Part shown: positions 1-27,268 of the stretch, in pieces
Layout of the letters: every line of letters starts with the position of its first letter
How positions within the stretch are numbered: the stretch's first letter is position 1
NCBI RefSeq assembly: GCF_001425005.1
Contig: NZ_LMDB01000001.1
Span: 188,393-252,392, forward strand
Length of the DNA stretch: 64,000 bases
Origin: Duganella sp. Root336D2
GTDB lineage: Bacteria > Pseudomonadota > Gammaproteobacteria > Burkholderiales > Burkholderiaceae_D
Direction: 5' to 3'
Notes under the pieces: generated by a model
Databases searched by the model: none
Seen by the model: only the letters and a program-made list of their open reading frames with translations
What the model was told of the DNA's origin: nothing
Translations under genes and position numbers: made by a program

Positions 1-595
1 GCACCTTGGCGCCACCGCTGCAGTCGGCAAACTGGCTGGAAGTATCGGCCAGCACCATGGTGTGCCCGCTGGCGCCAAAGGTGAAGAAGTAGCAGATGCC
101 GGCCTGCTCCATCAGGCGCGAAACGAAGTCGAAAGCGGTTTCGTCGTATTGCACGCAATACTCACGCTTCGCGTAGCTTTTGCTGAGCCGGGAGTCGAAT
201 GCCACGCCAAAGGCAGTCAGCACATCCTTGATAATGGCATCGACGCCGAGATTGGAGAAAATCTTGCGGTCGCGCGACAGCGTCAGCTTCCACAGCGTCG
301 GCACCAGTTCCGCCTCGTAGAGCGAAAAATCCTTATCCTGGCCGCTCTGTACGAAACGCATGACCATGCCGCTGATATGGCGCGTGCCGCCCGACCCGCC
401 GATGCTCACCGTCATTTCCTTGCCGACGGCCGTTGCCGCACGCAGGCTGGTGCTGGAAGAGCGCATATGCAGGGTGAACTTGAACAGCTCCGACAAGCCT
501 TCGCTGCCCGCCAGGCTATCCAGCAGCAGGTCGTTGGCGCCGAACGGCGACGTCAGGTGCATCAGGCCGCCGGCCTGTTGAAAACCGGTGTTCAT
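1..595 (-). CDS. vgrG: Type VI secretion spike protein VgrG (TssI), N-terminal part
   Basis: The first 198 residues of a VgrG spike protein; the rest lies beyond the window start. VgrG trimers cap the Hcp tube and carry effectors into target cells. The translation begins MNTGFQQAGGLMHLTSPFG and continues with the gp27-like pattern of VgrG (short strands, a GLSELFKF-type segment, then SLYEAELVPTLWKL and QYDETAFDFVSRLMEQAGI), which matches the family well. The start codon at 595-593 overlaps the stop of clpV in an ATGA junction, so the two are probably translationally coupled. No C-terminal effector domain can be judged because the gene is cut. Confidence 0.93.
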   Translation of the reverse strand, partial: MNTGFQQAGGLMHLTSPFGANDLLLDSLAGSEGLSELFKFTLHMRSSSTSLRAATAVGKEMTVSIGGSGGTRHISGMVMRFVQSGQDKDFSLYEAELVPTLWKLTLSRDRKIFSNLGVDAIIKDVLTAFGVAFDSRLSKSYAKREYCVQYDETAFDFVSRLMEQAGICYFFTFGASGHTMVLADTSSQFADCSGGAKV

Positions 596-3228
596 GCCGC
601 CCTCCCGATCGGACTATCGCGGAAAATGTAGGAAAATTGCGTGCCCGCCATTGCCATGTGCACCCCCGAAAATGCCGAGGCGGTGGCGATGCGTTCCAGG
701 ACCTGGCTGGCAAGCTGCGGCAGCACGGTCTGGGTCAGTATGAAATCGATATTGCGCGCACCGCTGTCGACCTCCGTGCAGCGCGCTGCGATGGCAGCCG
801 TTACCGCATCGTCCCAGCTGAAACGCGCATGATGGTGGGCGGCAAAGCGTTCGGCCAGCCGGGCCAGCTTCATGTCGACAATCAGGCCGATGCCGGCATC
901 GTCCAGCGGGTAGTACGGGACCAGCACCACCCGTCCAAGGAAGGCAGGGCTGAACTGGCGCAGCAAGGCCGGCCGCAGCTGCTCCACCAGGGCGGCGGGA
1001 TCGGGCGCCACGCCATTCTGGCAGGCACGCGTGATCACATCCTGCGCTGCATTCGATGTGAGCAGGATCATGCAATGCCTGAAGTCGATCGGCACGCCCT
1101 CGCCATCTTCCATGGTGCCCTTGTCGAACACCTGGAAGAACAGTTCCAGCACGTCCGGGTGCGCCTTTTCCATCTCGTCCAGCAGCACCACGCTGTAGGG
1201 CCTGCGGCGCACCGCCTCGGTCAGCACGCCACCCTTGCCATAGCCGACGTAGCCGGGCGGCGCCCCCTTCAGGCTGGAGATGGTGTGCGCCTCCTGGAAT
1301 TCCGACATATTGATGGTGATCATATTGCGCTCGCCGCCATACAGCAGCTCCGCCAGGGCACAGGCGGTCTCCGTCTTGCCAACGCCGCTTGGCCCGACCA
1401 GCATGAACACCCCGGCCGGCTTGCCAGGATCGTCGAGCTCCGCGCGCGAGGTGCGCACCCGGCGCGCGATAGCGTCCAGCGCCTGGTCCTGGCCGACGAT
1501 GCGCTCGCACAGGCGCTCGTTCAGTTCCAGCACCGTGTGCACTTCGTCGGCCAGCATCCTGCCCACAGGGATCCCGGTCCAGCCGGCAATTACACCGGCC
1601 ACCATGGCCGAATCGACACAGACCGGCACCAGCGGTTCATCGTCGCGGATAGCCTCCAGCCCTTTTTGCAAGCGTTGCAACCGGGCGGCCTGCGCCAGCT
1701 GTTCTTCATCCCCGCTGCCCCCGGCATCGGCACAGGCAGCGATCTCGCGCCGCAGCGCCAGTATCTCCTCGACCGCGTGCCGCTCCTCGCCCACCTTGGC
1801 CAGGACGCTTGCATGGCGCGCGGCGAGGCGTTCCAGCGCGCCTGCCAGTTGTGCCGCCGCGGCGGCATCGCCTTCGCCGCGCCCGAGCTCCTGGCGTGCC
1901 AGGCGCAACCCTTCCTGTGCCAGCACTATCTCGTGCTGAAGCGCTTCCAGCGCCGGCGGCGTGCCCGCCTGCGCGATGGCCACCCGCGCGCAGGCCGTAT
2001 CCAGCACGCTGATCGCCTTGTCCGGCAACTGCCGTCCGGCGATGTAGCGCTGCGACAGGCGCACCGCATCGCGCACTGCTTCGTCCAGGATTTCCACCTT
2101 GTGATGCCGCTCGAGCGTAGCGACCATGCCGCGCAACATGCTGACCGCCGCTTCCGGTACCGGCTCATCCACTTTCACCACCTGGAAGCGCCGTGCCAGC
2201 GCAGGATCGCGCTCGACATGCTTCTTGTATTCGGCCCAGGTGGTCGCCGCAATCGTGCGCAGTTCGCCGCGCGCCAGGGCCGGCTTGAGCAGGTTGGCGG
2301 CATCGCCCTGCCCCTCGCTGCCGCCGGCACCGATCAACTGGTGCGCCTCGTCGATAAACAGGATCACAGGAGAGGCGGCGGCGCGCACCTCCGCGATCAC
2401 CGACTTCAGGCGCTGTTCGAATTCACCGCGCACGCCGGCGCCCGCCTGCAGCAGCGCCAGGTCGAGCGCGCATACGCGCACATCGGCCAGTACGCCCGGC
2501 ACGTTGCCGTCGGCGACGCGCTGGGCAAAGCCTTCCACCACCGCTGTCTTGCCCACGCCTGCCTCGCCGGTGAGGATGGGATTATTCTGGCGCCGCCGCA
2601 GCAGGATATCGATGATCTGGCGGATTTCGTCATTGCGGCCGCGCACCGGATCGATGCGGCCCGCGCGCGCCAGCGCCGTCATATCGACCGTGTACAGGTC
2701 CAGTGCGGGCGTCGTTGCACTTGGCAGCGAGGCTGCTCCGCCCTGTCCTGCGCCGCCGGCGCTGCCAGCCAGCAGCGTGGCCAGCTCGGTCTTCAGGCGT
2801 TCGCGCGGGATCTCGAGCAAGGCTGGTGCAGTTTCGATCAGCATGCCGCGCAGGCTGTCCAATTCCAGCATGGCCAGCAGCACCACGCCGGAGCGGATCT
2901 GCTGCGTGCCCAGCAGCATGGATCCAGTCAGCCAGGCTTCACGGAACAAGGGGGCAAAATGCGGCGAAAGCGCCGGCGTACGGCCATTGCCGCGCTTGAA
3001 GCCATCCAGGCAGTCCTGCACCTGGCGCCGCACGGCGTCGCCGCCCACGCCATAGTGCCGCAGCAGCAGCAGCAGGTCGGAGGCGCCGCCATCGATCAGC
3101 GCCGCCAGGAAGTGCTCCACCTCGACGTTGAAATGGGTCTGCTGGACACACAGTTCGGCAGCGGCATCCATCGCCCGCCGGCATTCCGGGTCGAGGCGTG
3201 TCAACAGGCTGCGGATATCGACTTCCAT
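592..3228 (-). CDS. clpV: T6SS sheath-disassembly ATPase ClpV (TssH)
   Basis: An 878-residue AAA+ unfoldase that recycles the contracted TssB/TssC sheath in the cytoplasm; the length is normal for ClpV. An N-terminal Clp-N repeat region (residues about 1-160) is followed by the first AAA module with Walker A GEAGVGKTAVVEG and Walker B FIDEAH, a coiled-coil middle domain rich in Ala/Glu/Arg, and the second AAA module with Walker A GPSGVGKTETAC and the pore-type loop GYVGYG. It starts three bases after the tssG stop and overlaps vgrG by 4 bp, so it is an internal gene of the tssEFGH-vgrG unit. The intact Walker motifs argue for an active enzyme. Confidence 0.97.
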   Translation of the reverse strand: MEVDIRSLLTRLDPECRRAMDAAAELCVQQTHFNVEVEHFLAALIDGGASDLLLLLRHYGVGGDAVRRQVQDCLDGFKRGNGRTPALSPHFAPLFREAWLTGSMLLGTQQIRSGVVLLAMLELDSLRGMLIETAPALLEIPRERLKTELATLLAGSAGGAGQGGAASLPSATTPALDLYTVDMTALARAGRIDPVRGRNDEIRQIIDILLRRRQNNPILTGEAGVGKTAVVEGFAQRVADGNVPGVLADVRVCALDLALLQAGAGVRGEFEQRLKSVIAEVRAAASPVILFIDEAHQLIGAGGSEGQGDAANLLKPALARGELRTIAATTWAEYKKHVERDPALARRFQVVKVDEPVPEAAVSMLRGMVATLERHHKVEILDEAVRDAVRLSQRYIAGRQLPDKAISVLDTACARVAIAQAGTPPALEALQHEIVLAQEGLRLARQELGRGEGDAAAAAQLAGALERLAARHASVLAKVGEERHAVEEILALRREIAACADAGGSGDEEQLAQAARLQRLQKGLEAIRDDEPLVPVCVDSAMVAGVIAGWTGIPVGRMLADEVHTVLELNERLCERIVGQDQALDAIARRVRTSRAELDDPGKPAGVFMLVGPSGVGKTETACALAELLYGGERNMITINMSEFQEAHTISSLKGAPPGYVGYGKGGVLTEAVRRRPYSVVLLDEMEKAHPDVLELFFQVFDKGTMEDGEGVPIDFRHCMILLTSNAAQDVITRACQNGVAPDPAALVEQLRPALLRQFSPAFLGRVVLVPYYPLDDAGIGLIVDMKLARLAERFAAHHHARFSWDDAVTAAIAARCTEVDSGARNIDFILTQTVLPQLASQVLERIATASAFSGVHMAMAGTQFSYIFRDSPIGRAA

Positions 3229-3231
3229 GCC

Positions 3232-4257
3232 TCAGCTCCCCGGTGCCGGCAGCACGAAACGTGCTGCCTGGTATTCGCATTCCCGGCGCCCCGGGGCGGC
3301 ACGGCCGCACAGCCATGCACTGCGCCCCAGCCGCGGCGCAAGGGCATCTGCCTGCCGGGCCCCGAGGCGGGATTTCGGGGAAGTTGCCAGCTTCAGCTCC
3401 AGCGTCACCTTCATATCGCGCTGCAGGTGCCGCGCCACCAGCCAGGCCAGCAGCCCGCACTGCCGCCCACCGGGCAGCAGCTCTGCGAACCGCTCGTGCG
3501 CCAACGCCGGGGCACCAAGCGCGATACCGGCGCACTGGTCCCAGGCGCGCGCACCAAGGCTGCCGCCTCCACCCAGGCGTTGCGCCAGGTGGCCGCCGCC
3601 CAGTCCCTGCAGGCGCGCACGGTCGCTAACTGCCAGCGGGTGCCAGCCTCCGACGAATTGCTGCCCTTCGAACTGGACGCCGAGGCGATCGCGTAACAAC
3701 GCCAGCAAGCTGGCCAGCGAACGCGGTGCGGCCCCCTGCAGGCCCGCATGGCGCAACCATGCCAGTTCGCCGCCCGGCCCGTGGGCGCCTTCCGCCAGGC
3801 CAAGCCCCGACAGTGCATCCAGGCTGTGCGGAAGCGGCGCCGGGCTGGCGATGCCCTGCAGCGGCAGGTGGTGCTTGCAACGGGCGCGGTACCAGAATCC
3901 GATCAGGCGCTGGTTGAAGATGTCCAGGAAATCCAGCCCGGCGCCGTCACGCGCTCGGCGGCGCGCCAGCAGCAGCTCGGTGAACGCCGCTGCCAGCGGT
4001 CCCTGCGCGCCGGCCAGGGACAAGGCTGGTGTGCGCAAGGTCAACGGCGGTCCGGGCCTGGCACTCTCGTCCAGGCTGGCGATATCGCTCGGCGCAAAAG
4101 CCATCCCGACCTGCGCCGCCAGCCGCAGTGCTTCATTGGCGCCGATACCGCGGCCAACCCGTGCGCGCGCCGGCTCGCTGCGCTCCAGCAGGCTGATGGC
4201 CTGGAACAGGTTGAAGTCATGCGGCGCTGCCCGCAGCTGTGAGATCAGGTCAGGCAT
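3232..4257 (-). CDS. tssG: T6SS baseplate protein TssG
   Basis: A 341-residue baseplate wedge component that partners TssF, TssE and TssK. The start chosen (MPDLISQLRAAPHDFNLFQAI) matches the typical TssG opening, where a short helix is followed by FxxFQAISLLER; the open frame extends further upstream, but that part lies inside tssF and does not look like family sequence. The start overlaps the tssF stop by 13 bp. The C-terminal half shows the family pattern of a beta-rich segment ending in LGARAWDQ and GRxAWLCG. Position and overlaps fix it as part of the tssEFGH operon. Confidence 0.93.
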   Translation of the reverse strand: MPDLISQLRAAPHDFNLFQAISLLERSEPARARVGRGIGANEALRLAAQVGMAFAPSDIASLDESARPGPPLTLRTPALSLAGAQGPLAAAFTELLLARRRARDGAGLDFLDIFNQRLIGFWYRARCKHHLPLQGIASPAPLPHSLDALSGLGLAEGAHGPGGELAWLRHAGLQGAAPRSLASLLALLRDRLGVQFEGQQFVGGWHPLAVSDRARLQGLGGGHLAQRLGGGGSLGARAWDQCAGIALGAPALAHERFAELLPGGRQCGLLAWLVARHLQRDMKVTLELKLATSPKSRLGARQADALAPRLGRSAWLCGRAAPGRRECEYQAARFVLPAPGS

Positions 4258-6023
4258 TGCCGCCCCGCCATCGCAGGCCACTGCTTCCAGGTCTCGCCGG
4301 TGCGCTGCACGGACAGGCGCACGAAAGAATTGGCCGTGGTGTACATCGCAAAGAAGCGCGCCAGTACGCCCGCCAGCACCAGCGGCGAAGTACCGTCGAA
4401 TGCAGCGGCATCGAATTCCAGCGTGACGTCGGTGCCGCGGCAATGCCCGCGCCAAGATTCGCTGCCCAGGCGTGCCGTAGCTGGCTGGGCGTGCAGGCGC
4501 TTGATGCCGCGCACCTGCAACTGGTCGCGCGCACTGCTGCCGGCGAACAGCGACAGCATTTCGCGCAGTGTGGCAGCCCCGTTCGAGCCGTCGGCCAGCG
4601 AGCGGTGATTCAGGCGCAGCAGCCCCACCAGGGCCCACAACGCATCATTGCCAAGTGCCGGCTGGCGCTGAGCGCTGGGCTGGTAGACGGCGCGGACCGA
4701 GGTCGAAGCGGCGACTCCATCGCCCCGGAAACGCGTGCCGGGTGCGACCTGCTCGGCCAGCAGCCGGTTGGTGCATAGCAGGCTGGCGTAGACTACAAAT
4801 TCGCCAAGTTCCGCGCGCACATCGCCACGATCGACAAAACCGAGGTAAACGTCGCTGCCGTTGATACCCTTGCGCAGGCTGGCTTCGCGCCGCATGCTCC
4901 AGCATACCTCCGCGCCGCCTGCGCCGGGCTCGGCATCAGCGAACGCGCTAGGGATTTCCAGGCTGCGCTCCCCGCGCGGGTCGGCCGCACTGACCGAGAC
5001 GATCGAATGCACTTCCAGCACCGCGTCGCGGCGACGATCCGGGATCAACAGGTACTCATAGTGGCGCCGGTCAAGCACTATCGGCTCGCTGGTAACAGGG
5101 AACAGGTTCAGAGCCGGCACACATCCCAGAAGCACGTTCTCGGGACGCAATTGAGACAAGACTGCCGCGCTGCGGGTGAACACCAGGCGGACCGAAAAGC
5201 CGGTTCCCCGGCCGAGGCGCCCGCGCAAACCGGATAAGTCGAAGAACTGGAATTTACGCGGGAACGCGAAGTACTCCTGCAACAGGCAGTATGCGGGATG
5301 GACGTGCGCCGGCCGCGCCAGCAGCGCTTCATCCTCGGCGAAGCCCACATCCACCAAATGGTGCGCAGACATGCGGTAAACGCCCGCACTGCCGACCACC
5401 TCGATATATTCCAATGCACTGATCAGCAGTTCGTGCAGCGGCATTGTAATCAGCAGGTCGCCCGACAAATGCAGGCGCAGCGTATCGAGCTCCAGCTCCG
5501 CCACGTCGACACCGCCTTCGCACAGCAGGTCGAGGCGCAAGGTTCGCGCGTCCTCCTGCATGATGGCGCCAATCCTCAGCGGCCACAGGATCGTGTTCCA
5601 TCCCACCTGGAAGCGGCATTGTTCTCCCGTCGCGGCGGTCGCCGACAGCATTGTGCCGCGCTTCACCGGCATTCCCGCCGTGACCTTGCCCTCGCTCGGG
5701 TCGAGCGCCATCTGCATGACCGTCATGGCAGGAACAGGCTGGGTCAGGCTCGGACACAGGTTGTCGAGCATGGCGGCAGCCACGGTCGGAAAGTCGCGCT
5801 CCAGTTCGCGATGTACGCGCGCATTCAGGTAGGCCACCGACTGGATCAGGTGTTCGGTATGCGGATCGGCCGCTTCGTCACCGGTCAACACCAGCCGATG
5901 TGCGACCTTCGGGTAGCGCGCCGCGAAGTCAGCCGACTGAACGCGCAGGTAGGCGAGTTCGCGGCGGTAGTACTCCAGCAGGTCGTCCTGCGCGCGCATG
6001 GCAGGCTTCTCCCTCGGGTTCAT
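4245..6023 (-). CDS. tssF: T6SS baseplate protein TssF
   Basis: A 592-residue TssF (VasA-like) baseplate subunit, of usual length. The sequence has the family hallmark near the start, LLEYYRRELAYLRVQSADFAARYPKVAHRL, and the conserved DPHTEHLIQSVAYLNARVHREL stretch near residue 60. The start at 6023 gives a 4-bp ATGA overlap with the tssE stop, as at the clpV/vgrG junction; an internal Met eight codons later (5999) is the alternative. With TssG and TssE it forms the wedge around the VgrG hub that triggers sheath polymerisation. Confidence 0.94.
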   Translation of the reverse strand: MNPREKPAMRAQDDLLEYYRRELAYLRVQSADFAARYPKVAHRLVLTGDEAADPHTEHLIQSVAYLNARVHRELERDFPTVAAAMLDNLCPSLTQPVPAMTVMQMALDPSEGKVTAGMPVKRGTMLSATAATGEQCRFQVGWNTILWPLRIGAIMQEDARTLRLDLLCEGGVDVAELELDTLRLHLSGDLLITMPLHELLISALEYIEVVGSAGVYRMSAHHLVDVGFAEDEALLARPAHVHPAYCLLQEYFAFPRKFQFFDLSGLRGRLGRGTGFSVRLVFTRSAAVLSQLRPENVLLGCVPALNLFPVTSEPIVLDRRHYEYLLIPDRRRDAVLEVHSIVSVSAADPRGERSLEIPSAFADAEPGAGGAEVCWSMRREASLRKGINGSDVYLGFVDRGDVRAELGEFVVYASLLCTNRLLAEQVAPGTRFRGDGVAASTSVRAVYQPSAQRQPALGNDALWALVGLLRLNHRSLADGSNGAATLREMLSLFAGSSARDQLQVRGIKRLHAQPATARLGSESWRGHCRGTDVTLEFDAAAFDGTSPLVLAGVLARFFAMYTTANSFVRLSVQRTGETWKQWPAMAGRQCLT

Positions 6024-6478
6024 GCTGCCGGCTCCAGCGAGGCCGCACGGCCGTCGAGCAGGCAGTCGAAATGCACCTGGCGCTGCTGCAGCCCAAGCGT
6101 CACGGCACCACCGATCCGGATACGCGCAGCGACCGGCTTGCCGGGATCGCGTTCCACCTTCACGACCACCTGCGACAGGCGCGGCTCGTACAACGCCACT
6201 GCACGCGCCACCACCCGTTCCCATTGCGCCAGGTCGGCCGCCGACTGCGGCGAAAGGCGCAAGGTGTCGGGCAGGCCGTAATGCAGGGAGCTCGCCTGGT
6301 CGCCGAGGAATTGCTCGATCGTCAGGCCGTTGCGGGAGTTGAATAGCCGGGACAGATCGGTCAGCACCGACTGCTGCAAACCGTCGGCGTCAAGCAAGCG
6401 GCCGTCACCTGCCGCATCGGATATTCCCGCGAGGCGGTCGAACAACGGTGAAACGGAATTCGCTGGCATGAGCTTCAT
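6020..6478 (-). CDS. tssE: T6SS baseplate protein TssE (gp25-like)
   Basis: A 152-residue gp25/lysozyme-like baseplate subunit and the first gene of the tssE-tssF-tssG-clpV-vgrG unit. The sequence shows the gp25 layout: an N-terminal PLFDRL segment, a helix SVLTDLSRLFNSRNG, YGLPDTLRLS, and the C-terminal half ending in the beta strands RDPGKPVAARIRIGGAV. A second Met lies three codons in (MPANSV) and could be the true start. Its promoter region carries TGATAC-type direct repeats shared with tssB (see the regulatory entry at 6525-6570), so it is probably transcribed separately from tssB-tssC-hcp. Confidence 0.92.
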   Translation of the reverse strand: MKLMPANSVSPLFDRLAGISDAAGDGRLLDADGLQQSVLTDLSRLFNSRNGLTIEQFLGDQASSLHYGLPDTLRLSPQSAADLAQWERVVARAVALYEPRLSQVVVKVERDPGKPVAARIRIGGAVTLGLQQRQVHFDCLLDGRAASLEPAA

Positions 6479-6524
6479 GGGGGCACCAATTCAAGGCTGC
6501 ATCGGTCAAAAGGGCTTGAAGTGA

Positions 6525-6570
6525 TGTTAGGGTTGGCCCGGTACGTTACACAAGTATCACGTGGGTAACA
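6525..6570 (-). promoter_or_regulatory. Candidate tssE promoter with 11-bp-spaced direct repeats
   Basis: Read on the minus strand: TGTTAC (6570-6565), TGATAC (6559-6554, exactly 11 bp further), immediately followed by a -35-like TTGTGT (6553-6548), 17 bp, then CTAACA (6530-6525), or TAACAT at spacing 18, as a -10-like element. The -35 ends 69 bp before the tssE start. The tssB promoter has the same parts at the same spacing. Direct repeats one helical turn apart overlapping the -35 are the binding pattern of winged-helix activators such as PhoB. The assignment is by pattern only. Confidence 0.6.
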
Positions 6571-6949: not shown

Positions 6950-7435
6950 TTAATCCGCCTTCATCGTCTCCAGGTTCCAGTTCCAGGTACCGGTACCTTT
7001 GGACGTCGAATCGGTTTTCTGCTGCGTGAAATCGGCCTTGATCTTGGTGAAATTCACCGAGAACGAGTCGTTCGGGATACCGCCGCCGCCGCTGCAGCTC
7101 ATTTGCGAGACCATGGCGTTATCCATCACATAGGTCATGAAGTTCATGTAGGCGCCATTCTCCACCCGGCCGATGTTCAGCTTGGCCGGGCCGATCTTCG
7201 TACCTTTCACGCAAGCCTTGAACAACTCGGTGGTGGACAGGTCGGAAGACTTTGAAAAAGACATTTCCGACAGCACGGCACGGCCCAGGGTCCGTTCGGT
7301 ATTGCCGGCGTCGCTGCCCATCGGCAGGTAGGCGTTGTGCGAGAACGAATGGACGATGATCTTGTCCGTAAAGCCGGTGATGGTGCAGTTGCCCTTGATG
7401 TCGGCACCCAGGTCGAGAATCAGTACGTCTGACAT
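6950..7435 (-). CDS. hcp: T6SS tube protein Hcp (TssD)
   Basis: A 161-residue Hcp-family protein that forms the hexameric rings of the secreted inner tube. The sequence shows the family features: the early DLGADIKGNCTITGF segment, an IIVHSFSHNAY strand, the RTLGRAVLSEMSFSK/S loop, and the C-terminal beta strand region ending SKGTGTWNWNLE. It lies 67 bp downstream of tssC with no obvious promoter between, so it is probably co-transcribed with tssB-tssC. A hairpin follows its stop codon and may set its mRNA level. Confidence 0.95.
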   Translation of the reverse strand: MSDVLILDLGADIKGNCTITGFTDKIIVHSFSHNAYLPMGSDAGNTERTLGRAVLSEMSFSKSSDLSTTELFKACVKGTKIGPAKLNIGRVENGAYMNFMTYVMDNAMVSQMSCSGGGGIPNDSFSVNFTKIKADFTQQKTDSTSKGTGTWNWNLETMKAD

Positions 7436-7502: not shown

Positions 7503-8993
7503 TCAGGCAGCCGCGGCGGGCAGTTGCGCCACCAGCCGGATCGAGGTAGTCAGCTCCTCCATCTGGAAGTGCGGCCGCAGGAATACCGTGGCCGAATAGG
7601 CCCCCGGCTTGCCGGGCACCTCGGTAACGTCGACGCGACCTTCCGACAGCGGGAAGCGCGCCTTCTCGCCCTGCGAAGCGTTCGGGCTCAGGAGGACATA
7701 GTCGCTCAGCCAGTTGTTGAGGAAGTTCTCCACGCTGCCGCGGGTCTGGAAGCTGCCGATCTTGTCGCGCATGATCACCTTGATATAGTGCGCAAAGCGC
7801 GAGGCGGCCAATACATACGGCAGGCGTGAAGACAGCGCCGCATTGGCGTTGGCGGCATCCTTGTTGTACAGCTTCGGCTTGTTGACCGACTGCCCGCCGA
7901 AGAAGGCGGCCATGTCCGAACCCTTGGAGTTGACCACGGCGATGAAGCCAAGGTCGTTCAATTCCTTCTCGCGGCGGTCGGTGATCGTTACCTCGGTCGG
8001 GCACTTCAGCGCGATGTCGCCTTCGTCGGTCTTGAAGGTGTGCGCCGTCAGGCCCGTAATCTTGCCGCCGCCTTCCACGCCGCGGATTGCCGTGGTCCAG
8101 CTATGTTTGGCGAAAGCATCGGTGATGCGCAGGCCTAGCTGGTAAGCGGAGTTCGCCCACAGGTATTTGTTGTGGTCCTTGCCGTCCACATCTTCTTCGA
8201 AGGCGAACTGTTCGACCGGATTGGTCTTTGCGCCGTAAGGCAGGCGAGCGGCGTAGCGCGGCAGCACCAGGGCGATATAGCGCGAGTCTTCCGTGTCGCG
8301 GAAGCCGCGCCAGGAGACCAGCTCATCGCTTTCGAAAATCTTCGCCATGTCGCGCGGCACGCCCAGTTCGGTGAACGAACCCATGTCGAACAGCGAAGGC
8401 GCTGCAGCGGCAATGAACGGCGCGTGCGCAGCCGCGGCGACTTTTGATAAGCGTTCCAGTAGCGCGATGTCCTGCGGATGGCGGCCGAAGTAGTAGTCGC
8501 CGATGAACAGCGAGTAAGGGTTGCCGCCAAACGTACCGTATTCTTCTTCGTAGACTTTCTTGAACAGTACGCTCATATCGTGATCGACCGCGCCTTCCAG
8601 GTCCTTCAACAATTCCTTCTTCGTCACGTTGAGCAAGCGCAGCTTGAGCATGGTGCCTGTCTCGGTACCGAACACCATGTCGTGCAGGCCGCGCCACGAT
8701 CCTTCGAGCGCCTGGAAACGCTCGTCGTGCAGGATGGCATTGACCTGGTCGCTCAGGATCTTGTCGATCTGTGCGACGCGTTCATTGATCATGGCAACGA
8801 CGCCCGCGTCGGGCGCCTTCTTCATGCCTTCGTCCAGTACCTGGGTGGCGAACTGGCCAAGAAGTTGGCGTGCGTACTGGCTTTGCGATGGCTCGACGGC
8901 CATTTTTCCTTCTTGGACGATGCGATCCAACAGGCTCGATTCCTGGTTGGTCGTACTGGCACCGGCCTGGACTTCCTCTTGATTGCTGGCCAT
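7503..8993 (-). CDS. tssC: T6SS contractile sheath large subunit TssC
   Basis: A 496-residue VipB-type sheath protein; with TssB it forms the cytoplasmic contractile sheath around the Hcp tube. Conserved stretches seen are LEGSWRGLHDMV near residue 97, FKKVYEEEYGTFGGNPYSLFIGDYYFGR near 145, the RFAHYIKVIMRDKIGS block, and the C-terminal EVPGKPGAYSATVFLRPHFQMEELTTSIRLVAQLP, all typical of TssC. It begins 45 bp after tssB. The length and the intact C-terminus suggest a functional protein. Confidence 0.97.
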   Translation of the reverse strand: MASNQEEVQAGASTTNQESSLLDRIVQEGKMAVEPSQSQYARQLLGQFATQVLDEGMKKAPDAGVVAMINERVAQIDKILSDQVNAILHDERFQALEGSWRGLHDMVFGTETGTMLKLRLLNVTKKELLKDLEGAVDHDMSVLFKKVYEEEYGTFGGNPYSLFIGDYYFGRHPQDIALLERLSKVAAAAHAPFIAAAAPSLFDMGSFTELGVPRDMAKIFESDELVSWRGFRDTEDSRYIALVLPRYAARLPYGAKTNPVEQFAFEEDVDGKDHNKYLWANSAYQLGLRITDAFAKHSWTTAIRGVEGGGKITGLTAHTFKTDEGDIALKCPTEVTITDRREKELNDLGFIAVVNSKGSDMAAFFGGQSVNKPKLYNKDAANANAALSSRLPYVLAASRFAHYIKVIMRDKIGSFQTRGSVENFLNNWLSDYVLLSPNASQGEKARFPLSEGRVDVTEVPGKPGAYSATVFLRPHFQMEELTTSIRLVAQLPAAAA

Positions 8994-9038: not shown

Positions 9039-9584
9039 TCAGGACTGGACTTCTTCGGCTTTTTCTTCCGCTGCAGGTTCGCCCGCGGAAGCAGCACCGC
9101 TTTCGGCCTTCAGCGCCTTCAGTTCTTCCGTGTTTTCGACAATCTTCTCGAGCAGCGTATCCAGTTCATCGTTGCCATCGAGTTTGCCGAGCAGGTCGCG
9201 TAATTGCTGGCGCACCACCAGCAGCTTCGCCAGGCGTGGCACTTGTTGTGCAATGGACTCCGGATGGAAATGATCGATCTCGCTGAACTTCAATTCGATC
9301 TTCAGGTTGCCGTCTTTCTTGTAGGTGTCCGGCACCGACAGGTCGAGGCGCGGGGCAATCTTCGCCATCACTTCCTTGAAGTTGTCGCGGTCGATTTCCA
9401 CCAGGCGGCGCTGCTTCAGCTTCGGCAACGGCACCAGTGGCTGGCCCGACAGATCGGCCAGCAAGCCCACCACTAAAGGCAGTTCCTTCTTCTCGACCGC
9501 GTCGCCGATTTCCACATCGTAGGTAATTTGCACGCGCGGGGGACGGTTCCGTCCCACCCATTTTTGCAAGCTGTCTGACATCAC
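9039..9584 (-). CDS. tssB: T6SS contractile sheath small subunit TssB
   Basis: A 181-residue VipA-type sheath protein. The opening SLQKWVGRNRPPRVQITYDVEIGDA and LPLVVGLLADLSGQP are diagnostic for TssB, as is the NFKEVMAKIAPRLDLSVPD block. Two Met codons occur at the start (9584 and 9581); either may be used, with a GAGGG-like ribosome site upstream. It heads the tssB-tssC-hcp unit and is divergent from the STAND-family regulator gene. The low-complexity Ala/Glu tail is usual. Confidence 0.96.
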   Translation of the reverse strand: MMSDSLQKWVGRNRPPRVQITYDVEIGDAVEKKELPLVVGLLADLSGQPLVPLPKLKQRRLVEIDRDNFKEVMAKIAPRLDLSVPDTYKKDGNLKIELKFSEIDHFHPESIAQQVPRLAKLLVVRQQLRDLLGKLDGNDELDTLLEKIVENTEELKALKAESGAASAGEPAAEEKAEEVQS

Positions 9585-9633
9585 GCCCTCACTGGAAATG
9601 TTATAGGGGACAAACCGGGTGTTTCGGTTTTGA

Positions 9634-9679
9634 GATTAGGACTGCGCGCTCGCGTAACACAAGTATCAGCGCAGTATCA
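9634..9679 (-). promoter_or_regulatory. Candidate tssB promoter with 11-bp-spaced TGATAC repeats
   Basis: On the minus strand: TGATAC at 9679-9674 and again at 9668-9663 (11 bp apart), directly followed by -35-like TTGTGT (9662-9657), a 17-bp spacer, and CTAATC (9639-9634), or TAATCT at spacing 18, as -10. The -35 ends 72 bp before the tssB start. The repeats also lie 85 bp before the divergent regulator gene at 9764, so one protein could control both directions. The same layout recurs before tssE and before the gene at 25820. Confidence 0.65.
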
Positions 9680-25723: not shown

Positions 25724-25769
25724 TGATACTGCATTGATACTTGAAACAGCGCTGGCAATCAGCTAAAAC
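25724..25769 (+). promoter_or_regulatory. Candidate T6SS-type promoter before the orphan gene at 25820
   Basis: TGATAC at 25724-25729 and 25735-25740 (11 bp apart) is directly followed by -35-like TTGAAA (25741-25746) and, after a 16-17-bp spacer, by CTAAAA/TAAAAC (25763-25769). Across both half-sites and the spacer the sequence matches the tssB promoter element at 19 of 21 positions by eye. The -35 ends 73 bp before the start at 25820, close to the 69 and 72 bp at tssE and tssB. Confidence 0.6.
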
Positions 25770-25819: not shown

Positions 25820-27268
25820 ATGGCACGCTATTTGAAGCTGCGCAACGGCAACGTCTTTGTGGATGGCTTCCACCTGCTCGCCCTGATCGAGAAGCTGATT
25901 CATGAAACCAGGCTGGCTCCGGATCTCGCTGGCACCGGCGCGGCCAACGATCCCTACGTCATGGACAGTGCATCGGATTGGATCACACGCTGGAAAGCAT
26001 CGACACACGAAGCTGTCATTTACTATAAGCTGGCCGGCCGCCTGATTACGAAGAACAAGCGCGTCTATATTGGCGATGCCGGCCCAGCCTATCTGCAAGG
26101 CGCGAGCATCCTGGAGGCAGCATGCAAGTCGTTTCGCAGCCTTTACGGCCGCTTGCCACGCTTGCGCACTGAGACAGGATTTTTGATGACGATTCGCTTG
26201 GGCATCGAAGAAACGCAGCCGGGCGTCAACTCCAGGCAGGTACTGCGCCAGGTTACGGCCAGCGGAACGCCGCCCGCGAACTGGACCGCGGTCGTCCTCA
26301 GCAAAGTGGTGGAAGCCGCGGCAAAGATAAGCGGCGGCGCATCTAACGACTCGATGGAATTCTTTCATGCAGAGGACAGGGCCAGGCTGCAGGGCTGGAT
26401 GGTGAAAAACTCGCATCGCGATCCCGAATACCAACTGCTGGCTCAACGTATGGTGGACCCGGGATTGATCTACGATCAAAGCCGGCAGGCGCTGGCAGCC
26501 GGGCGCGGGGTGCCGCGCGCGATTTCCTGGAACGATATTACCCGTTCCCCAGTTATCGCCGGCGCAATCCGCAAGTTAATGAAGGGGGAAAAGCTCGCGT
26601 TGGGCAAGGACTATTCGCGCATGCAGTTTCTATTGCCGGTCACGACGATGGCAATATTCCATGCCGAACCCGCGCGAAACGCCCGCGCCTGGCCAATCAA
26701 CTTGATGGTGCTTGACCTGGCCGAAGCCAGCACACCCAATTTCACCTGGGGTGCCATCCTGTGGCACCCCCTGGCCATCCCGCGTGATGCCACCACGGGA
26801 GTTGGCATGCCCGTTCCGCCTCAAACCGTGATCCACGGCCCGATCGGCAATGGGCGCGCCATGGGACAGATCGACAATACGCTCAAGCTGCACCTGGTCG
26901 GCGGCATTTTGCCGGCAAGCCCCACCAAGGGCGGCGAGATCGGCGGAAAGCAACTCTTCAAGCCCGCCAAGCCACTCACTGCGCAAGCAATTCTCCACAA
27001 TGCGAAGCAAGGTCACGGCGACATGCACAATTCGCCATACGATTTCATCCACCAGAAAGAAGTCGACGTCGTACTGCGGTGGCTCACGAAGTTTCCGATC
27101 ATCGCGGGCGCCTGGGAAGTCGCGGACCCTGCCGACGGCGGCGCTGTCCTGTTGAACAGCCAGGCGATACTAAGCCGCATCATGCCGAACGATCAGGTCG
27201 TGTCCAACTCCTTGCGCTGGATGGGCACGATCCTTTCAAATCGCATCGAAAGCCTGGACCGAATGTAG
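25820..27268 (+). CDS. Orphan protein of unknown function with a T6SS-like promoter
   Basis: A 482-residue protein that I cannot assign to a family. It has no signal peptide and no clear membrane segment. It opens MARYLKLRNGNVFVDGFHLLALIEKL, has a central alpha/beta-looking part and a C-terminus with possible catalytic polar clusters (HNAKQGHGDMHNSPYDF). The start at 25820 has a GGAGG at 25811-25815; an upstream Met at 25778 would leave almost no leader after the predicted promoter. The promoter shares the direct-repeat element of tssB and tssE, so it could be a T6SS effector, adaptor or accessory protein. This is inference from the promoter only. Confidence 0.75.
   Translation: MARYLKLRNGNVFVDGFHLLALIEKLIHETRLAPDLAGTGAANDPYVMDSASDWITRWKASTHEAVIYYKLAGRLITKNKRVYIGDAGPAYLQGASILEAACKSFRSLYGRLPRLRTETGFLMTIRLGIEETQPGVNSRQVLRQVTASGTPPANWTAVVLSKVVEAAAKISGGASNDSMEFFHAEDRARLQGWMVKNSHRDPEYQLLAQRMVDPGLIYDQSRQALAAGRGVPRAISWNDITRSPVIAGAIRKLMKGEKLALGKDYSRMQFLLPVTTMAIFHAEPARNARAWPINLMVLDLAEASTPNFTWGAILWHPLAIPRDATTGVGMPVPPQTVIHGPIGNGRAMGQIDNTLKLHLVGGILPASPTKGGEIGGKQLFKPAKPLTAQAILHNAKQGHGDMHNSPYDFIHQKEVDVVLRWLTKFPIIAGAWEVADPADGGAVLLNSQAILSRIMPNDQVVSNSLRWMGTILSNRIESLDRM

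Follow-up and report, generated by a model that had tools for sequence, protein, structure and literature searches.

We analysed a stretch of 64,000 nucleotides from Duganella sp. Root336D2 (contig NZ_LMDB01000001.1, positions 188,393 to 252,392; hereafter the window), which holds part of a type VI secretion system (T6SS) gene cluster. A common promoter element stands before tssB, tssE and an orphan gene at 25820, and the gene divergent from tssB encodes a winged-helix STAND protein (P0001) which probably reads this element as an activator. The preliminary description of this DNA reported at the three promoters two TGATAC-type half-sites 11 bp apart, followed by a -35-like hexamer and a -10, and this can be read directly from the sequence (Table 1). 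When we re-measured how far the -35 ends before the start codon, we obtained the same values, 72 bp for tssB, 69 bp for tssE and 73 bp for gene 25820. The spacer had been given as 16-17 bp, which holds for gene 25820 (17 bp) but not for tssB and tssE, where it is 18 bp. The -10 hexamer follows the end of half-site 2 at 24 bp in tssB and tssE and at 23 bp in gene 25820. The half-sites thus lie one helical turn apart beside the -35, as in direct repeats of the OmpR/PhoB type, and by our own count, taking TTGTGT as the -35, the pair is centred near -45.

The element is rare. The genome-wide pattern search called for in the preliminary description found the exact form, TGWTACN5TGWTACTTG, only four times in the own genome of 6.58 Mb, and a single match came from the 73 further genomes of the genus. 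The reversed control gave no match in the own genome and one in the 73. With up to three mismatches this first pattern was noise (45 matches vs 42 in the control). For this reason only its sites with 0-1 mismatch were counted. The fourth exact site of the own genome (C1:324116) precedes a phospholipase-D (PLD)-like operon, in which a PLD-domain protein is followed by a 170-aa protein, a GMC oxidoreductase, a ferritin-like and a polyketide-cyclase-like protein. For the PLD gene, the candidate start codons are found about 240-305 bp past half-site 2, far beyond the distances at the other sites. A looser scan added a fifth own site (C1:77267), where half-site 1 is at 12 bp and TATGGT takes the place of the -10; it precedes an open reading frame (ORF) of 91 aa. 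Three candidates with two mismatches to the first pattern were dropped: C1:94190 and C11:27052 are both within long ORFs, and C22:311770 has no TTGTGTTAC core. ARAGORN found no tRNA beside the last of these.

The element is also conserved at the same promoters in relatives. Among 392 genomes of the family, 31 encode TssB (E ≤1e-50), and 30 TssB loci were scanned with a weight matrix trained on nine sites of two genomes (four own, five of Massilia atriviolacea, here G111). Six further tssB loci scored 34.9-57.1, and the remaining 22 scored at most 13.1. The refined pattern, TGWTACTTGTGTNACG-N13-CTACCAT with at most three mismatches, occurred at 25 sites in nine of the 31 TssB genomes, with one match in the control. 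Throughout the 392 genomes it gave 27 sites in 11 genomes, 23 of them at no more than one mismatch; its reversed control gave 20 matches, all in different genomes (numbers of mismatches not given). We treated the sole match in G578 (three mismatches, score 7.3) as chance; the element-bearing genomes, ten in number, have one to five sites each. Owing to its differing -10, the own tssB site matches the refined pattern at three mismatches only. When 200 genomes of the order were searched (six of the family and 194 from outside it), the refined pattern was found in the own genome only.

In all eight genomes whose T6SS carries the element (the own one, G111, G162, G512, G514, G544, G562 and G667) the refined form TGWTACTTGTGTTACG-N13-CTACCAT is present at both tssB and tssE. 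The 26-base form TGWTACN5TGWTACTTGTGTWAC was returned from two places in the genome_contigs collection (84,980 species by its description), a scan which may leave out the own or near-identical genomes. Both places are in M. atriviolacea SOD and are the tssB and tssE promoters of a T6SS like the own one. This does not make M. atriviolacea the sole other carrier, since the 26-base form is also matched exactly in G512, a genome of the other set that the scan did not return.

Beyond the two T6SS promoters, the element recurs before other genes in some of these genomes. In G544 it precedes a protein with a Peptidase_C39 match above the cut-off and a 129-aa protein, and in G111 a 210-aa protein (sub-threshold Peptidase_C58) and proteins of 160 aa and 294 aa. 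Single sites precede a 303-aa protein in G562, a 443-aa protein in G150 and a 1278-aa protein in G196. The extra site in G514 (L161 593; G514:C88:558) lies back to back with the tssE element and faces an ORF that is transposase-like by eye. At the threshold of the refined pattern, no sites besides those of tssB and tssE were found in G512 and G667. G162 has the tssB and tssE sites and an odd one without a -10 (G162:227781, score 0.0), which we kept among the 29 aligned sites. Other than the PLD-like and C39-like proteins, none of the dispersed targets had a match above cut-off.

We observed two further similarities around these sites. Downstream of one M. atriviolacea copy (L165 ~8404; G111:C12:593403) there is first a stretch like the start of tssB and then the unrelated 210-aa ORF, an apparent duplication of the promoter cassette before another gene. 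Several tssB, tssE and other sites also resemble one another in the leader past the -10 (TTCCGAACTACCCGATTTACAAA-like, about 38-61 bases after the start of half-site 2 in 28 aligned sites), a similarity for which either copying or a second regulatory signal may account.

The spacing of the half-sites was examined in the 29 aligned sites by counting YGWTAC with at least five of six bases. It was found at offset 11 in 21 sites and at offset 12 in four, and every other offset from 6 to 19 had 0-1 of the 29. Since nine sites (four own, five of G111) came from a pattern that required the 11-bp repeat, the fair count is that of the 20 sites found without this requirement, where 12 were at offset 11, four at 12 and no more than one at any other. 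The 11-bp repeat is a real feature of the element, though loose at some tssB promoters.

P0001, encoded next to the tssB promoter, is the candidate activator. An OmpR-type winged helix (aa 40-110; Trans_reg_C, E 5.7e-16) is followed by an nSTAND1 NTPase (aa 130-549) and by C-terminal tetratricopeptide-repeat (TPR)-like Pfam matches that are below their cut-offs. Among PDB sequences, the closest to the winged helix is the DNA-binding domain of CadC (5ju7, E 7.7e-14). Between the NTPase and the TPR-like part, at about aa 596-614, lies a hydrophobic segment; in each of the 31 homologs compared, the strongest segment by hydropathy falls at the equivalent position. P0001 likely has one transmembrane helix. 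Because of the CadC match and the conserved hydrophobic segment, its sequence suggests a membrane-anchored activator of CadC/ToxR-like layout with a STAND NTPase. Pfam searches matched no receiver domain and, at E 0.001, no BTA domain; it is nSTAND1 that comes after the winged helix. The own genome also encodes a second homolog of winged-helix/nSTAND1/TPR-like composition (G000:C1:484550-487774; L049, L059), which is 41% identical to P0001 and has a different recognition helix.

P0001 tends to occur in the same genomes as the element. A homolog at E ≤1e-150 was present in 71 of the 392 genomes of the family, and 12 genomes including the own one have a close ortholog (at least 56% identity), with a gap down to 52%. 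Nine of these 12 carry the element, compared with one of the 380 others (two if G578 is counted; Fisher p ~4e-15). Among the 31 TssB-bearing genomes it was present in eight of eight with a close ortholog vs one of 23 without (p ~1e-6); shared ancestry inflates both p values. When the two pattern-defining genomes (own and G111) were removed and G578 was set aside, the counts were 8/11 vs 0/379. The recognition helix reads DSxxHKN in 12 of 12 close orthologs, while all 19 other aligned homologs have DN and lack HKN. The most telling case for the pairing is G150, whose contig C4 holds the regulator (60% identity), a P0006 homolog (see below) and the element together, and no queried T6SS protein matched within the 20 kb fetched there; conversely, regulator and element are both absent from the 20 kb retrieved around tssB on its contig C22. 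In G196 regulator and element are both present, far apart, and no TssB was found at the threshold used.

The shared activator proposed in the preliminary description is thus well supported, since the element is rare, is found at the same two T6SS promoters in eight of eight genomes and recurs before other genes in some. The same description pointed to the protein divergent from tssB as this activator. Judging by the co-occurrence (9/12 vs 1/380) and by G150, P0001 is the best candidate, though not a proven one, and four genomes break the rule. We put the probability that the element is an activator-dependent promoter read by P0001, which would drive the T6SS together with dispersed genes, at about 70%.

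Several observations weigh against this assignment. G111 has five sites, yet its regulators are only 46% and 44% identical to P0001, with the helices DNQVHKV and DNPVHKM; the 46% homolog is about 7 kb from tssA. G157, G170 and G172 have close regulators (one of 68%) and neither the element nor a match to its 16-base core with one mismatch. Homologs of 50-52% in G037, G549, G601 and G673 also go without it. We dropped the notion that the whole regulator family binds the element, as many genomes have homologs of 35-52% and no element. Of 12 neighbourhoods of regulator homologs, 11 had no match to a queried own T6SS protein, G111:C12 with its tssA being the exception. As for the site itself, half-site 1 is poor or off-phase in eight of the 29, four of them tssB promoters (G514, G544, G562 and G667), and several of the 29 are orthologous to one another and hence not independent.

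The regulon could also be real and be read by another protein, either P0006, which is encoded downstream of P0001, or an unlinked regulator of the OmpR type. We consider this unlikely, though it deserves more attention than the alternatives that follow. Homologs of P0006 adjoin the regulator in most genomes with a close ortholog (G150, G512, G514, G544, G562, G667 and G162; the matches in G512 and G562 are cut by the end of the sequence retrieved there), and linkage therefore cannot separate P0001 from P0006. The sites of G111, which has no close ortholog of the regulator, also speak for another reader. On the other hand, P0006 homologs also lie next to regulator homologs where the element is absent (L053 in G061, L056 in G018 and L057 in G126). 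P0006 consists of a conserved N-terminal part and a C-terminal part like TolB-N/PelC. A structure model from 10 sequences (mean predicted local distance difference test score, pLDDT, of 78) had its best Foldseek matches in TolB and PelC, which are not DNA-binding proteins, and the sequence has no convincing solved relative (one match at E 0.92). A degenerate winged helix in the N-terminal part was considered and not confirmed. We also noted that P0006 homologs are divergent from several distant regulator homologs, while here and in the close-ortholog genomes they are convergent downstream.

An alternative sigma factor might instead recognise the core TTGTGTTACG-N13-CTACCAT with no activator involved, in keeping with the strong conservation of core and -10 at fixed spacing. 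This is very improbable, as a sigma factor alone does not explain why the upstream direct repeat is conserved at one helical turn, the gene 25820 site keeps the repeats and not the core, and TACCAT fits the familiar housekeeping pattern TAnnnT. Equally hard to credit is that the similarity reflects chance or recent copying of the tssB promoter cassette with no shared regulator: copying does seem to occur, given the apparent remnant of the tssB start at one M. atriviolacea site and the conservation that extends past the -10 into the leader at several sites, but within one genome the spacers vary from site to site apart from the half-sites, the core and the -10, and three genera (g1, g6, g12) retain elements in front of unrelated genes.

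Gene 25820 is the weakest member of the group. Its half-sites are perfect, but it is without TTGTGTTACG and its spacer is 1 bp shorter. The full element scored 5.9, compared with 42-76 for the three other own and five M. atriviolacea sites tabulated, by a matrix built from those same sites. Its protein, P0002, matched nothing in Pfam, NCBIfam, PHROGs or PDB sequences, and no homologs were found in 299 other genomes of the order (at E 1e-8) or in plasmid records. A single-sequence structure model had a mean pLDDT of 34. Since the exact pattern is rare by chance (one match in 73 genomes), the gene is a probable member of the regulon; no ortholog was found for comparison, and so the rarity of the sequence carries this link by itself. 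That P0002 is T6SS cargo is a guess.

The arrangement of the promoter suggests how P0001 would act. A half-site pair directly upstream of the -35, near -45, fits a tandem winged-helix dimer that acts by class II activation. The winged-helix domains of P0001 would bind the two half-sites, one helical turn apart, as a head-to-tail dimer, which would sit just upstream of the weak -35 and recruit RNA polymerase. The tssB operon, the tssE operon and the dispersed genes would be switched on jointly; in the own genome these predicted targets are gene 25820, the PLD-like operon and the 91-aa ORF. P0001 would probably be an inner-membrane protein whose winged helix and STAND NTPase face the cytoplasm and whose TPR part lies outside. 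A signal from the envelope may then be linked to DNA binding through nucleotide-gated oligomerisation. Just past the -35, TTACG is conserved, which the tandem-dimer model does not explain. It may be a third contact, as a further TGTTAC begins 9 bp past the start of half-site 2.

What the sequences show is the element, how rare and how conserved it is, and that it co-occurs with the regulator; we infer binding, activation, topology, signal and the role of the dispersed genes as cargo from these patterns, and a broader proposal is less likely. In it, a membrane-anchored STAND one-component activator reads an envelope signal and fires the apparatus together with unlinked toxins, new cargo genes join when the tssB promoter cassette is copied in front of them, and the element by itself lists much of the effector set of each strain. 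We regard this as possible, but would sooner expect it to be wrong in part.

Past the left end of the window the T6SS cluster itself goes on with vgrG, genes for a solute-binding protein and two DctA-like transporters, tssK, tssL (assigned by position only), tssM and tssA. Together with the genes in Table 1, this accounts for the T6SS genes looked for, namely tssA, B, C, E, F, G, H, K, L, M, hcp and vgrG. The two DctA-like transporters and the solute-binding protein lie inside the cluster (L032 9691-13434), and the same set is present in the clusters of G111 and G514. Six genomes of the same genus whose T6SS is without the element (L086, L088, L089, L090, L091 and L093) have another conserved block upstream of tssB. 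It contains TATCA/TATCG repeats 11 bp apart, which are GATA-type half-sites in the opposite orientation, and is perhaps the site of a related regulator.

Table 1. Promoter elements and genes in and around the T6SS cluster of the window.
Feature	Position	Strand	Description	Basis
tssB promoter element	9633..9679	-	half-site 1 TGATAC 9679-9674; TGCGC between; half-site 2 TGATAC 9668-9663; -35-like TTGTGT 9662-9657; -10-like TAATCT 9633-9638	sequence; same element at tssB of 7 other genomes
tssE promoter element	6524..6570	-	half-site 1 TGTTAC 6570-6565; CCACG between; half-site 2 TGATAC 6559-6554; -35-like TTGTGT 6553-6548; -10-like TAACAT 6524-6529	sequence; same element at tssE of 7 other genomes
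gene 25820 promoter element	25724..25769	+	TGATAC 25724-25729; TGCAT between; TGATAC 25735-25740; -35-like TTGAAA 25741-25746; -10-like TAAAAC 25764-25769	sequence; exact match to TGATACN5TGATACTTG, without the TTGTGTTACG extension
P0001	9764..13069	+	candidate activator, 1101 aa, divergent from tssB	Pfam, PDB sequence match, hydropathy
P0006	13458..14240	-	possible co-regulator	homologs beside regulator homologs; model and Foldseek
P0002	25820..27268	+	orphan protein, 482 aa, under the third element	no family match
tssB (VipA)	9039..9584	-		Pfam
tssC (VipB)	7503..8993	-		Pfam
hcp (tssD-like)	6950..7435	-		NCBIfam TIGR03344, E 9.8e-13, below cut-off; same place in syntenic clusters
tssE	6020..6478	-		NCBIfam TIGR03357
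tssF	4245-6224	-		Pfam and NCBIfam
tssG	3232-4638	-		Pfam and NCBIfam
tssH	592-3228	-		Pfam and NCBIfam

T6SS cargo genes distant from the apparatus are hard to find, and a rare promoter signature names candidates directly, several of which match no Pfam family. The element may thus help to find genes that work with the T6SS. It would also provide a STAND transcription factor with candidate target DNA, and it pairs the system with a regulator architecture which we did not meet for a T6SS in the titles and abstract beginnings surveyed.

PhoB-type winged-helix activators use 11-bp direct repeats beside the -35. The repeats described here adjoin the -35 in the same way, while P0001 differs from PhoB and OmpR in having no receiver domain match. 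With one-component membrane activators of the CadC/ToxR type it shares an N-terminal OmpR-type winged helix, and it would also share a single transmembrane helix and a C-terminal part beyond it if the hydrophobic segment spans the membrane, as is likely. It differs from them by the STAND NTPase between winged helix and membrane helix, by the TPR-like C-terminus and by a predicted regulon that comprises a T6SS. P0001 also resembles AfsR and the large SARPs of Streptomyces in its plan of OmpR-type domain, nucleotide-binding oligomerisation domain and TPR(-like) part. AfsR, a solved precedent in which a winged helix is joined to a nucleotide-binding oligomerisation domain and TPR, acts on a pair of 11-bp direct repeats where the -35 is poor, in a box centred at -29.5 (PMC10936776). 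The pair described here is near -45, and P0001 has no BTA match and a likely membrane helix. In SARP promoters the 3' repeat is 8 bp from the -10 (PMC10936776), whereas here half-site 2 is 23-24 bp from it and a third TGTTAC would be 15 bp away; thus neither the SARP spacing nor a BTA domain after the OmpR-type domain was found. P0001 would control T6SS operons in a co-ordinated way, as known T6SS regulators do. Among these, a 2023 review names OmpR-family regulators such as VxrB, ToxR, ChvI and PhoP, and its main text contains no mention of 'winged', 'stand', 'hila', 'tetratricopeptide' or 'direct repeat' (PMC10482370). Literature searches on the T6SS, the T6SS of Massilia and Duganella, nSTAND winged-helix proteins and CadC-STAND-TPR proteins gave no report of the regulator or the element among the titles and abstract beginnings listed. 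The parts are of known kinds, and it is their combination that looks new.
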